DNA of 64,000 bases from Calditrichales bacterium MX18-03 (GTDB taxonomy: Bacteria > Bacillota > Clostridia > Lutisporales > Lutisporaceae): contig JAJGRE010000002.1 of NCBI GenBank assembly GCA_021083345.1, positions 868,001-932,000 on the forward strand. Reading direction: 5' to 3'. The first letter of the stretch is position 1. Each line of letters begins with the position of its first letter. Made by a program: the position numbers and the translations under genes. Positions 48,825 to 54,367 of the stretch are shown piece after piece. Below the pieces are notes generated by a model. That model was not told the DNA's origin. It worked only from the letters and a program-made list of their open reading frames with translations, and searched no databases.

Positions 48825-50600
48825 CTATAGATCCACGATGACGGTATCGGCACTGATGCCTTCCAGCCCTTCCGTTCCGATAATGATCAGGTTGGTGCCT
48901 TCCTTGATACTCATAATATCCACAGGCGAAAGCTTTTTATCCACGATTTTGGCATTTCCGGCAAATACTTTTTTCTCCACATAGTTTTTGCCCATTGCGT
49001 TGTACTCGCTGATCGTAATGATCTTCAACTCCGCATTGACAAACTTGACAGCACCTTTTGTATCAATTGACACTGCGGCTATTTCATTCACGATGGTAAC
49101 CTTTACGACTTCTTCGTCGATAATCTGGACATCTACCAGCATTCCGGGTCTTAAGCCGTATACATCATTGACAGTTCCCGCGACTTCAATCGTCTTTGCG
49201 GTATAATAGGCTGACTGCAGATCACCTGCTGTCGTCAGGACAAGCTTTGGCGTTGTCGTTCTGCTGTAAGTTATGGACTCGATGACGCCCTTTTCATTGG
49301 TCTCAATTCCATCGGCATTGACTTCCAGCAGTTCATCATAGGAGGAGGTCAGCAGCAGCTTGTTCCCTTTGTTCAGGTCCTGCCAGCCTGCTACCTTTCC
49401 GTCCTTTACCACTACCGTTCTGGTTGTAATGGTATAGTTCTTGATTTCGCCCTTATGGGTCTTCATAGTGAGGACGGTTTTGTCAGTGGTGTCGATTTCC
49501 ATCAGCTCACCCACCATCTTCCTCACTTTACTTTCAGCGATAATCTTCGTTATTACATTATTATTCAGATACAGGTTCGCCACGTCATCCTTTTTCAGCT
49601 TATAATAGTTTACCTGCGCCCCATCCAGGGAACAGACCACGCTTTCAGATACCCTGTATACTTTTTTTGTCAAGGTGCCTGCAGCATCCTTTACAGAGAC
49701 AGCCAGGTTTCCATACTCGGCAATAACCTCTTCCACATATCCCGTGATATCAGGTGCTCCTTCACTCTCTATTGAAATAGCAGGTGTATCGGCAGCAGTA
49801 TCGGTAGCTGTATTGGAGCCAATGCTTGTACCGGTGCTGCTGTCCTGGCTGCTGCCCGATCCGGCATTATTATCCTGGACGACGCTTGTATCTTCAGTTG
49901 TACCGGTTCCTGCCCCACCGCCCAGTTTTTCTTTCTGAAACTGCGTGTTGGAGATGTCCAGCATTTTGGCAAAGGTTTCTCTTGTAAGCATCGCGTCGGG
50001 ATTCAGCTTGCCGTTGGCATCGCCCTTTTCTCCGATTACACCGATATCAATGAGGTACTTCACATATGGTTTGTAAGCCGTGGGAATAAACAATACATCG
50101 GTAAAAGCAGGCAGGATGGTAGGCGGCATATTGGCTTTCACGGTAATCCCAAAGGCTTTTCCCAAATACATGCATACATCTTTTTTCTTGGCATAGGGAC
50201 TATCCTGAAAAGCACTGATGTCATAATCCGTTATGACATTCTTTTCAAGGCAGAGCGCAACTTCGCCCCTTATGTTTTCCGGTACATTGAACTTATCCAA
50301 TATTCTGTCCTTGTATTTTGCCTTCAGTGCATCCAGGTCGGCCTTGTACACAGCATTCATCATTCTGCCGATACCGACGATAGCGTCGTAGTTCCTGGTG
50401 TTTTCAGCAGGCTTGAACAAACCGTCGGCTGCAGCATCCATCAGACCTTTCTCGTATACACTGGCAATATTCTGTTTTGCCCAGCTCTTATCTATATCAG
50501 TCAACTGTGTTGCATTCAAATCGCCATATGCCGTACAGGTTACCGCAAAGCTCAGGACTGTCATAATAACTGCTGCTTTTAATCCTTTTCTCTTTTTCAT
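48825..50600 (-). CDS. SLH-domain surface protein with Ser/Thr linker
   Basis: From the ATG at 50600, 6 bases after AAGGAGG, the protein has 591 residues. It has a signal peptide (KAAVIMTVLSFAVTCTAYGD) and two or three SLH-like domains at the N-terminus (about 30-215, with LTDIDKSWAKQNIASVYEKG and FTDVLFIPTAYKPYVKYLID). A low-complexity Ser/Thr/Gly/Asp linker spans about 225-290. About 300 residues of beta-rich sequence then show repeated short motifs, for example KKVYRVSESVVCSLDGAQVN and KGAVKFVNAELKIITISEYN. No enzyme motif was recognised. N-terminal rather than C-terminal SLH domains distinguish it from the two other SLH proteins here. The protein probably sits in the wall and displays the C-terminal region. 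Confidence 0.84.
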   Translation of the reverse strand: MKKRKGLKAAVIMTVLSFAVTCTAYGDLNATQLTDIDKSWAKQNIASVYEKGLMDAAADGLFKPAENTRNYDAIVGIGRMMNAVYKADLDALKAKYKDRILDKFNVPENIRGEVALCLEKNVITDYDISAFQDSPYAKKKDVCMYLGKAFGITVKANMPPTILPAFTDVLFIPTAYKPYVKYLIDIGVIGEKGDANGKLNPDAMLTRETFAKMLDISNTQFQKEKLGGGAGTGTTEDTSVVQDNNAGSGSSQDSSTGTSIGSNTATDTAADTPAISIESEGAPDITGYVEEVIAEYGNLAVSVKDAAGTLTKKVYRVSESVVCSLDGAQVNYYKLKKDDVANLYLNNNVITKIIAESKVRKMVGELMEIDTTDKTVLTMKTHKGEIKNYTITTRTVVVKDGKVAGWQDLNKGNKLLLTSSYDELLEVNADGIETNEKGVIESITYSRTTTPKLVLTTAGDLQSAYYTAKTIEVAGTVNDVYGLRPGMLVDVQIIDEEVVKVTIVNEIAAVSIDTKGAVKFVNAELKIITISEYNAMGKNYVEKKVFAGNAKIVDKKLSPVDIMSIKEGTNLIIIGTEGLEGISADTVIVDL

Positions 50601-50830
50601 TAGTATCCTCCTTATTATTATATCCATGTTCCCACAAATGACTCTTATGTATCTAAGACGAACATAATTGTCCATATGTATTATTCTTTAGAATTTGCGT
50701 AATTCCTGCTTTATACTGTTAAATTTGGTGGAAAAATTCGCTTCTGTAACATTCTCTTAATATTCTGGCAGGAACTCTCAGCACGATCCGCCGTCCAATC
50801 AGATATACAAAGGTTTTGAGAAATCAGACC

Positions 50831-50858: not shown

Positions 50859-51029
50859 AAAACAGCTAGTTACCATAAAATTTCACTTTGCAGCATGGTT
50901 GATATGGGATAATATAAGTATTAGCTCGTACACCAAATGCATACCTGACAGCAGATGAATCACAGACAGGACAATGCTTCCATTGTAGTTAACGTAATTT
51001 CTCAACATAAATTCTGCTTTCCATCAACA

Positions 51030-51108
51030 TTACACGATGTTACGCATTTATTGCACAGACATTACACTTGTTACACAGCCATTACGTATTCTTACAGTAT
51101 CATGACAC
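51030..51108 (+). repeat. Helically phased TTAC(A/G)C motif array
   Basis: TTACAC, TTACGC, TTGCAC, TTACAC, TTACAC, TTACGT, TTACAG and TGACAC start at 51030, 51040, 51051, 51062, 51071, 51082, 51092 and 51103. The spacing of 9-11 bases is one DNA turn, so all motifs face the same side of the helix. The array ends about 24 bases before the proposed -35 of the S-layer gene. Confidence 0.65.
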
Positions 51109-51131
51109 AGGCAGGAAAACGAATTTTTGTG

Positions 51132-51159
51132 TTGAATTTATGTTAACATTAGCTAGATT
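51132..51159 (+). promoter_or_regulatory. Possible promoter of the S-layer gene
   Basis: TTGAAT (51132-51137) and TAGATT (51154-51159) are 16 bases apart. The -10 match is imperfect, and TTACAC/TACAGT at 51071-51098 is an alternative. A start near 51166 would give a leader of about 135 bases. Confidence 0.4.
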
Positions 51160-51182: not shown

Positions 51183-51193
51183 GAAAGGAGGTG
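51183..51193 (+). promoter_or_regulatory. Orphan Shine-Dalgarno (STAB-SD-like) in the S-layer leader
   Basis: GAAAGGAGGTG is fully complementary to the 16S rRNA 3' end, but no ATG, GTG or TTG lies at a usable distance after it. The true start is about 110 bases further on with its own AAGGAGG. It resembles the mRNA-stabilising STAB-SD of Bacillus cry3A leaders. Confidence 0.5.
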
Positions 51194-51301: not shown

Positions 51302-54300
51302 ATGAGTAAGAAAATACTTGCGCTTCTCTTAGCATTTGCTCTTGTGTTCTCAACAGTCACAGTTGCATTTGCAGCAGAAGACACAATCGGTGCGGACGCA
51401 CAGATCGTTACAACTATCGGAATGCTCCAAGGTTCAGGTAATGGTGTAACAGCAGAGTACTTGGCAACACAGCCTACAAGATTGCAGGCAGCTATCATGT
51501 TCTTGAGACTTAAGGGTCTTGAAACAGAAGCACTTGCTTTCACAGGCACTAACAACTTCGCAGACGGCAACATCGCATGGGCCGGCGGAAAAGCAATCAT
51601 GGGCTACCTGAAAGCAAATCCGCAGCTCGGCTGGATTGGTGATGGCACAAACTTCAATCCTAACGACATGATCACAGCTCAGCAGTACTACAAAGTCATG
51701 TTGGAAGCACTCGGTTACAAGCAGACTGCTACTGGTGTTGAAGGTGACTTCACATGGGCTAACGTTATCGCTTTCGCAGCACAGAAGGGCCTTGTAAAGG
51801 TTGCTTCAGTTGCAAAGTTCACAGCTAACGACTTGGCAATCGCTACAGTTGAAGCATTAAAGACAAACACTAAAGACGTTGCAAAGTCACTTATCGCTTC
51901 ATTAGTAGAAGCTGGTAAAGTTGACAAGGCAAAGGCTGTTACAGCAGGTCTTGTACAGGCTACAGTTTCAGCTGAAGTTGATACAGTAAAAGCTATCGGT
52001 AACACAGTTGTAGAAGTTGTATTTGAAGACGATGTAGACGCAGCAGCAGCAGGTAATGCAGCTAACTACTCCATCGAAGGTCTTGCAATCACTTCAGTAG
52101 TCGTTGCAGGCACAGATACAGTAAGATTGACCACAGCAGCTCAGACTGCAGGTAAGCTTTACTCAATGACAATTGGTTCAGAAACAGTTAAGTTCACTGG
52201 TATCGCAAAGGTAGCAGACGGTCCTCAGATCACAGATGTAGTAAGTGAAGATGTTGAAGAAGTTGTTATCACTTTTGATAGAAACATCGACTTCGCAACA
52301 GGTACAAACGTAGCTAACTACGCTATATCTGGTGTAACAATTGTAAAAGCTGAAGTTGATGGTGACGAAGTTACATTGACTACAGAAGGTCTCAAGAACA
52401 AGACCAGCTACACAGTAAAAGTAACAAACATGAAATCAATCGACGGTGTAGCAAGAAAATCTACTTCAGATGATTTCACTACAAAGGTTGACGTAACAGC
52501 ACCTAAGCTTGAAGGCGAAATCGAAGTACAGACTAACGACAGAATCGTTGTAACATTTAATGAAAAAGTAACGGAAGCATCTGCAGAAAACCTTGCAAAC
52601 TACACAATCACAGTAGATGAAACTGACGGTGCAGAACTTGAAATCATATCCGTAACTTGGGACAGCGACGATGAAAACAATGTTGAAATCGTAACTGAGC
52701 CTATGGAAAAGAGAGAAGATTACAAGCTTTCCGTCATCAACATCGCTGACCAGAGAAAGGTAGCCAATGTCATGACTAGACCGGCTACAAAGGTATTTGA
52801 AGCAATCGCTGCTGACGAAACAGCACCTGTATTCAATGCCATCACAGTACTTTCACCAACAGCAATATTGGTTGAATTCACAGATGCAAGCAAAATAGAC
52901 GAAGCTAGTGCAACAGACCTCAACAACTATGAATTGGAAGGTCTGGACATCGAAGCTATCGAAACGGTTGAAGACGAATTAGGAATTTTCAGAGCCCTTC
53001 TCACAGTTGAAGAAATGGAAACTGGAGAATCCTATGACTTGACAATCGCAGATGTTGAAGACGAATACGGCAATGTGATGAAAGAAACAACAAAGGCAGC
53101 TAAAGCAATTGCAGGCAGCTTGGCTTCAGCAAAGCTCCTTACAGTTGTAGCAACTGGCGAAAACAAGATCATGCTTACTTTCGACAAGGAAGTAAACGAA
53201 GCAACAGCTGAAAACATTGCTAACTACAGCATTGACGAATCAATCGGCGCACCGACAAAAGCAACTAAGAAGACCGCAACTACAGTTGAACTGGAAGTTA
53301 ATGACCTCGTAAACGGCTATGGCGAATACGACTTAGTAGTTGACGGCGTAGAAGACTTAGCAGGCAATGAAATATACTTCAAGAAGAAAGTTGACACAAC
53401 AACAGTTTGGAACACAACAGCTCCTGAATTGGAAGATGCTAACGCAGTGAACAAGTATGTTGTAGCCCTTTCATTCGACGAAAGAGTAGAATTTGAAGCT
53501 GATACAAGATTGATCCTGGCAATAGACGGTGATGTGAACAACACAATCGAATTGGCTGCAAACGAAGTAGTAGAAGATGGTACAGTAGTAGAGTTCGCTT
53601 ACGCTTCAGCAATGGATGCTGACACAACTTACAGTGTTGTCGGCGTAGTATACGGTGCTGGAGATGATGACGGCGGAGTTAAAGACTTGGTTGGCAACAG
53701 ATTCCTCGATTCATCCTTCACATTTGGTGATTACGAATTCGAAGGCAATGACGACGAACCGGAAGCAGCTGAAGTTGTATCCTACGAGCAGGTTAATGGT
53801 ACGACTATCGAAGTAACAATGTCCAGATTCGTTAACGTAACAGACGCTACACAGTCTGCAAACGGCGTAAACTTCACAGTAACAGTTGATGAAGACGTTG
53901 TAACCTTTGCCGGTGATGCAGCGCTTGAAGAAGACGAAGACTACACATTCAACTTCGCAGACTTCCTGGAAGACTACCATGGCTTCGCAGTAGCAAACAG
54001 CGACACTGATACAACAACAGTCCTGACTGCAGAAGATACAGACTCAATCAACCCTGAAATCGATACAGTTGTAGCTAAGAACAGAGAAACAATCAAAATA
54101 ACATTCAGCGAAAACATCCCTGCTGGTGTTGTACAGACAACTGACTTCGAATTCAAGAACTACGATTTGGACAGCACAATCTCAATCCTTGCTGTTGTTG
54201 ATACAACAGTAGGCGATAACGTAATCGAACTGACAATCGCTAAGCCGATGGAAGCAAGATACGAATATGAATTGACATTGAAGAAAGAAGCAATAGCAGA

Positions 54301-54367
54301 CTTTGCAGGTCTTAAGAACGAAGCTGCTGAATCCTTCTACTTCGAAGGTACTAACTTAGCGAAGTAA
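51302..54367 (+). CDS. Probable major S-layer protein with Ig-like repeats
   Basis: From the ATG at 51302 (AAGGAGG 11 bases before) the protein has 1021 residues. It has a signal peptide (KKILALLLAFALVFSTVTVA, cleavage near AFAAED) and an N-terminal SLH-like region (about 30-210, with GADAQIVTTIGMLQGSGNGV and ITAQQYYKVMLEALGYKQ). About eight SbsA-type Ig-like domains follow, each with AENLANYTI-, TFDKEVNEATAENIANY- or VKDLVGN-like text. It is acidic, with no Cys seen. Codon choice is narrow (ACA, GCA, GAA, AAC and similar dominate), unlike its neighbours, and points to very high expression. The long leader with a spare Shine-Dalgarno and a strong terminator also fit an abundant S-layer subunit. 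The protein at 59.5-62.9 kb shares the architecture. Confidence 0.88.
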   Translation: MSKKILALLLAFALVFSTVTVAFAAEDTIGADAQIVTTIGMLQGSGNGVTAEYLATQPTRLQAAIMFLRLKGLETEALAFTGTNNFADGNIAWAGGKAIMGYLKANPQLGWIGDGTNFNPNDMITAQQYYKVMLEALGYKQTATGVEGDFTWANVIAFAAQKGLVKVASVAKFTANDLAIATVEALKTNTKDVAKSLIASLVEAGKVDKAKAVTAGLVQATVSAEVDTVKAIGNTVVEVVFEDDVDAAAAGNAANYSIEGLAITSVVVAGTDTVRLTTAAQTAGKLYSMTIGSETVKFTGIAKVADGPQITDVVSEDVEEVVITFDRNIDFATGTNVANYAISGVTIVKAEVDGDEVTLTTEGLKNKTSYTVKVTNMKSIDGVARKSTSDDFTTKVDVTAPKLEGEIEVQTNDRIVVTFNEKVTEASAENLANYTITVDETDGAELEIISVTWDSDDENNVEIVTEPMEKREDYKLSVINIADQRKVANVMTRPATKVFEAIAADETAPVFNAITVLSPTAILVEFTDASKIDEASATDLNNYELEGLDIEAIETVEDELGIFRALLTVEEMETGESYDLTIADVEDEYGNVMKETTKAAKAIAGSLASAKLLTVVATGENKIMLTFDKEVNEATAENIANYSIDESIGAPTKATKKTATTVELEVNDLVNGYGEYDLVVDGVEDLAGNEIYFKKKVDTTTVWNTTAPELEDANAVNKYVVALSFDERVEFEADTRLILAIDGDVNNTIELAANEVVEDGTVVEFAYASAMDADTTYSVVGVVYGAGDDDGGVKDLVGNRFLDSSFTFGDYEFEGNDDEPEAAEVVSYEQVNGTTIEVTMSRFVNVTDATQSANGVNFTVTVDEDVVTFAGDAALEEDEDYTFNFADFLEDYHGFAVANSDTDTTTVLTAEDTDSINPEIDTVVAKNRETIKITFSENIPAGVVQTTDFEFKNYDLDSTISILAVVDTTVGDNVIELTIAKPMEARYEYELTLKKEAIADFAGLKNEAAESFYFEGTNLAK

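Follow-up and report, generated by a model that had tools for sequence, protein, structure and literature searches.

Few genes of a bacterium with an S-layer are transcribed as heavily as those of the S-layer itself, and little is understood of how the cell adjusts coat synthesis to the growth of its wall. Regulators of the OmpR/PhoB family typically bind 11-bp direct repeats, and NlpC/P60 hydrolases are usual targets of WalR. The Bacillus anthracis coat gene eag is reportedly SigH-dependent, a finding said to come from Mignot et al. in 2002. For WalR (YycF/VicR), the consensus TGTWAH-N5-TGTWAH on either strand has been described in B. subtilis, S. aureus and S. mutans; it is functional in both orientations in S. 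mutans, and the known sites usually consist of one pair (PMC4168254). In C. difficile, six genes for S-layer proteins (cwp2, 5, 12, 16, 17 and 66) go up when WalR is overexpressed, and an NlpC/P60 gene that carries two putative WalR sites goes down (PMC9210968). The SigH promoters of C. difficile have an AGG-to-GAA distance of 21 or 22 in 29 of 30 cases (PMC7438776). In B. anthracis, the two coat genes sap and eag are under growth-phase-specific sigma factors (PMC8056022).

Here, we analyzed a 64-kb stretch (the window, G000:C8:868001-932000) of a 4.69-Mb genome, in which eight phased half-sites lie upstream of an S-layer-type gene. We read this array as a tandem WalR (YycF) site driving the SigH-dependent promoter of that gene, and from the sequence we put the probability of this reading at roughly 0.77. 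The single WalR pair is a known kind of site; new at this locus is the long phased array beside a SigH promoter. The features are as follows.

50988-51013, + strand: upstream element, consisting of two degenerate copies with a 13-bp offset (GTTAACGTAATTT at 50988-51000, CTCAACATAAATT at 51001-51013)
51029-51107, + strand: whole array, eight RTTACA-type half-sites (TGTAAY on the - strand)
51029-51066, + strand: upstream extension, four half-sites (ATTACA 51029-51034, GTTACG 51039-51044, ATTGCA 51050-51055, ATTACA 51061-51066), assessed by local shuffles
51070-51107, + strand: conserved core, four half-sites (GTTACA 51070-51075, ATTACG 51081-51086, CTTACA 51091-51096, ATGACA 51102-51107), from a gapless alignment of 13 orthologous promoters
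51111-51119, + strand: SigH-type -35 GCAGGAAAA with AGGA at 51113-51116, from the SigH matrix; AGGA invariant in relatives
51130-51138, + strand: SigH-type -10 TGTTGAATT with GAAT at 51134-51137, 21 bp from AGGA
51139-51147, + strand: conserved block TATGTTAAC directly 3' of the -10, columns +5 to +12 with 1.2-2.0 bits among the family promoters; the transcription start is expected to fall within it
51302-54367, + strand: target gene for an S-layer-type surface protein of 1021 aa, ATG at 51302, signal peptide, Ig-like Big_5 domains

The words of the array start at 51030, 51040, 51051, 51062, 51071, 51082, 51092 and 51103, with spacings of 10, 11, 11, 9, 11, 10 and 11 bp (mean 10.4), exactly as the initial annotation had listed them. 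Six of the eight open with TTAC, the exceptions being TTGC at 51051 and TGAC at 51103. Using a phased-chain score for chains of TTACA-like words 9-12 bp apart, we obtained 16.0 for the array; the next-best chain in the 64-kb window reached 5.0, and chains at other periods reached at most 7.0. A shuffled control, which the initial annotation had proposed, gave a maximum of 8.0 in 200 dinucleotide-preserving shuffles of the whole window on both strands, so the array is not a product of chance. The chain score of 51000-51067 alone was unmatched in 5000 local shuffles. An imperfect 20-bp internal repeat (51051/51071, 13/16 identical) suggests that part of the upstream extension arose by a 20-bp duplication. 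Across its own genome, TTACN{6,7} repeated three times was not over-represented (2 matches vs 7 in the reversed control), and the TTAC word by itself is therefore not the signal; 11-bp DTTACA pairs were over-represented (17 vs 4 in the control), several of them intragenic.

To score the promoter, a matrix was taken from the published C. difficile SigH promoters (Table 3 of PMC7438776), with -35 RNAGGAWWW and -10 RNNGAATWW about 21-22 bp apart from AGG to GAA. The window promoter reached 17.3 bits (0/300 shuffles), and all 13 orthologous promoters lay at 17.3-22.1 bits (0/300 shuffles each) with an AGG-GAA distance of 21 and with invariant AGGA and GAAT. Three paralogs of the SigmaA type and L030, a diverged ortholog, scored at background level. 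The genome carries a SigH gene (TIGR02859, 372.8 bits, cut-off 294.8). Judged by these elements, the S-layer-type promoter is SigH-type. It shares AGGA-21-GAAT and a TGTAGAATT-type -10 with C. difficile promoters such as that of cwp27, a cell-wall protein gene and in this respect like the surface-protein target here, but a phased activator array, as proposed for our locus, is not described for them (PMC7438776). The obvious -35-like hexamer, TTGAAT, sits inside the SigH -10. A SigmaA promoter with TTGAAT as its -35 was rejected: relatives have no conserved -10 at the proper distance from it, whereas AGGA-21-GAAT is invariant. The initial annotation put the array just upstream of a proposed -35, and this has to be revised, as no -35 of SigmaA type follows the array; no coordinates were given for that -35, and TTGAAT as the hexamer meant is our reading.

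The N-terminus of the gene product matches one to eight paralogs per genome in 21 of 22 family genomes, mostly draft or metagenome assemblies; the named relatives are Gracilibacteraceae and Lutispora assemblies. Upstream regions of 62 paralogs from family genomes were gathered and scored. Orthologs of the window gene nearly always carry the array, with the last four sites at 11-10-11 bp, and the number of sites varies between genomes from four to eight. When 13 promoters from 13 genomes were anchored on GAAT (position 0), the core aligned without a gap, with TTACA at -63, -52, -42 and -31 and AGGA at -21. In the window, the last half-site likewise starts 10 bp 5' of AGGA and 31 bp 5' of GAAT. 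The TTAC columns hold 1.2-2.0 bits and most spacer columns less than 0.8 bits; the half-sites are mostly R/TTTACA, with a purine first and T third in most of the 13 promoters. Across 22 whole family genomes, nearly all matches to the four-site pattern, with one mismatch allowed, were S-layer-type promoters, usually one per genome. The comparison of orthologs that had been advised thus found the phasing of the core four (51071-51107) kept in 13/13 aligned promoters. Gapless conservation, the fixed distance to the promoter and the near confinement to S-layer-type genes all favour the same-face, cooperative factor site that the initial annotation had proposed. Its description of the factor as an unknown activator fared less well, because these genomes have the identical motif as their WalR box, while the PhoP box of the family is a different one.

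WalR of this genome matches NF040534 with 342.2 bits, barely above the cut-off of 340, and its gene shares an operon with those of WalK and YycH. In the stretch that separates walK from the gene after it, TGTAAT-N5-TGTAAT ends 10 bp before TATAAT (L204:3151-3167), and TGTAAY-N5-TGTAAY was found after walK in 17/17 family genomes examined. From this position and the published consensus TGTWAH-N5-TGTWAH (PMC4168254), we infer that WalR binds the wal operon site. At the internal promoter of this operon, the pair replaces the -35, and the next gene encodes a secreted protein with no Pfam family over the cut-off. The reverse complement of the wal-operon pair, RTTACA-N5-RTTACA, is the unit of the S-layer array, whose sites are thus oriented opposite to that pair. 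Three of the eight half-sites in the window match DTWACA exactly, and the others have one or two mismatches. Two 11-bp pairs, with 10 bp between pairs, were present in 13/13 promoters, in agreement with the repeat spacing of WalR, and the 11-10-11 bp core can be read as two dimer sites. The array therefore shares with known WalR sites the half-site word, the 11-bp direct repeat, cell-envelope targets and use of either strand, but differs from the usual single pair (PMC4168254) in having four conserved sites, and eight in this genome, at 11-10-11 bp beside a SigH promoter. LytTR-type, Spo0A, AbrB and CodY sites were set aside for a poor fit in word or spacing.

An alternative is that a different member of the OmpR/PhoB family binds the array in the same way, perhaps one dedicated to the S-layer and similar to WalR in specificity. 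This genome encodes 20 OmpR-type regulators, several with WalR-like winged-helix domains, and in the family four-site arrays are nearly confined to S-layer-type genes, both of which suit such a protein. Yet the same word occurs in the wal operon and before an NlpC/P60 hydrolase gene, arrays of it stand before mreB and ftsA in distant clostridia, and the inspected part of the window showed no gene for a regulator next to that of the S-layer protein; we regard another regulator of this family as unlikely. Much less probable still is a PhoP box through which phosphate starvation would control the S-layer gene. Its architecture would be the same, with 11-bp direct repeats, and the family pstS promoters are, like the S-layer one, preceded by several half-sites with an 11-bp phase. 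A PhoP-like regulator is also encoded with PhoR beside pstS in this genome, although its matches were below every cut-off shown. We rejected the PhoP box after comparison with the family's own pst promoters, where the word is TTAACA/TTTACA vs RTTACA in the array: 12 of 13 phoR-downstream regions carried TTAACA/TTTACA-type pairs and 0/13 the RTTACA pair, and a purine-first word with T third is not that of PhoP. Since the array word is the WalR word of the family and distinct from the PhoP word, WalR and PhoP sites can be separated here, and the array carries the WalR word. Such a family-specific WalR word (RTTACA/TGTAAY) would be of use, as the two kinds of site are hard to distinguish elsewhere. 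The PhoP boxes in pstS upstream regions (e.g. L230, L233, L234) also form long phased rows of the TTAACA type, and OmpR-type regulators of these bacteria may often use long rows of half-sites.

Neither curvature nor chance accounts well for the array. Helical phasing 5' of a promoter is a property of curved UP-type DNA, and DNA that is curved or organised by a nucleoid protein might strengthen the promoter without a sequence-specific activator. However, 51030-51108 contains no A or T run of at least 4, and curvature was set aside for this lack of A-tracts; moreover, the TTACA words are conserved while the spacers drift, and the pattern is nearly unique in each genome. We consider this explanation highly improbable. 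The nucleoid protein that had been offered as an alternative occupant also fits badly, as one base-specific, fixed-spacing array per genome is unlike the needs of such a protein. A chance arrangement or a decaying, functionless tandem duplication is hardly credible: the repeat at 51051/51071 hints that part of the extension was duplicated, but the chain score is out of reach of the shuffles and the array is kept across the family.

Under the WalR reading, WalK would phosphorylate WalR, and WalR~P would occupy the half-sites head to tail, one monomer on each, with two dimers on the core. These dimers would end directly 5' of the -35, where they may touch the sigma factor or the alpha subunits; through contact with the SigH-carrying RNA polymerase, WalR~P would activate transcription. 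The four extra sites would extend the stack on the same face and raise occupancy. Activation is inferred in preference to repression because of the upstream position of the array and the C. difficile data. In the available part of that work, S-layer protein genes are raised by WalR, as proposed here, but a multi-site array or a coupling to SigH is not described, and the surface-protein family differs (PMC9210968). If this reading is true, the wall-homeostasis regulator WalR and the transition-phase factor SigH would be joined at one coat promoter, and the cell would make its coat according to the condition of its wall, from a promoter type used as growth slows.

A second S-layer-type gene lies outside the window (G000:C8:963489-964117) and is 74% identical over the first 160 residues. 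Its promoter is of the SigmaA type, TTGACT-17-TATAAT, and it carries two TTACA words at an 11-bp interval. In the second paralog class, of which nine members were aligned, the promoter is again TTGACT-17-TATAAT; the words of TTACA-N6-TTACA lie 31 and 20 bp 5' of its -35, and a third, weaker word lies 10 bp 5' of it. Given this WalR-type pair before SigmaA paralog promoters, the same factor would serve both SigH and SigmaA promoters. With its pair 20 bp before the SigmaA -35, the paralogous coat gene would thus use the same regulator with SigmaA, and one factor would serve growth-phase and stationary-phase coat genes. The sap/eag switch of B. anthracis similarly has two coat genes with growth-phase-specific sigma factors, but the accessible part of its description contains no WalR-type site array (PMC8056022).

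Elsewhere in the genome, the sole other three-site array (G000:C9:202819-202846, L205) has three phased ATTACA words 62 bp before a hydrolase gene, whose product is secreted and combines two peptidoglycan-binding domains with one of the NlpC/P60 type. The three words lie directly downstream of TATAAT, which suggests repression of this gene. In other clostridial families, four- or five-word arrays precede mreB in three genomes and ftsA in one; because many matches of this class-wide four-site scan were simple tandem repeats or unplaced, with uneven enrichment against the reversed control, only cases with clear neighbours were used. Many four-site TTAC arrays were seen in G333, G221 and other genomes of the class, and several of those in G221 precede genes for pilin-like surface proteins whose N-terminus bears VTLIALVVTIVILIILAAVSINMVLGDQGIF.

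5' of the array lies the upstream element. Its family form is GTTWACATAA, and most genomes have two copies of it with an offset of 13-14 bp. In three relatives it repeats the GAATTATGTTAAC of the promoter (51134-51147 here) exactly but inverted, and it could be a second operator or one half of a looping pair. The inverted copy GTTAACATAATTC was rejected as a divergent SigH promoter, since AGGA was absent at the proper place in relatives checked by eye. The distance from the element to GAAT is 146 bp here, 115-116 bp in genus g3 and 113-114 bp in g7; in two members of g2 it is 114 vs 94 bp, the distance in G007 exceeding that in G001 by 20 bp. Such offsets, roughly 30 and 20 bp, come near three and two helical turns. 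The array might act as an evolvable gain control, in which half-sites are gained or lost in whole helical turns while the SigH promoter and the upstream element stay fixed; lineages would then tune output, cooperativity or threshold by array length, with the element kept on the same face. We offer this idea tentatively and think it rather doubtful. If the WalR reading is right, the natural series of array lengths would allow a test of the number of half-sites open to an activator of the OmpR type.

The target gene product appears S-layer-like by its size, signal peptide, Ig-like domains and paralog family. Its Pfam Big_5 match scored 78 bits and SLH 11.6 bits, below the cut-off of 20.8, and its N-terminus had no relative among solved structures. 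The divergent neighbour (48825-50606, - strand) encodes a protein with one detectable SLH domain. In the 5' leader, GAAAGGAGG at 51183-51191 lies about 110 bases before the start codon, with no plausible start after it. The word resembles the STAB-SD mRNA stabiliser of Bacillus cry genes, and similar words (GGAAAGGRGGTGC) occur in about half of the orthologous leaders.
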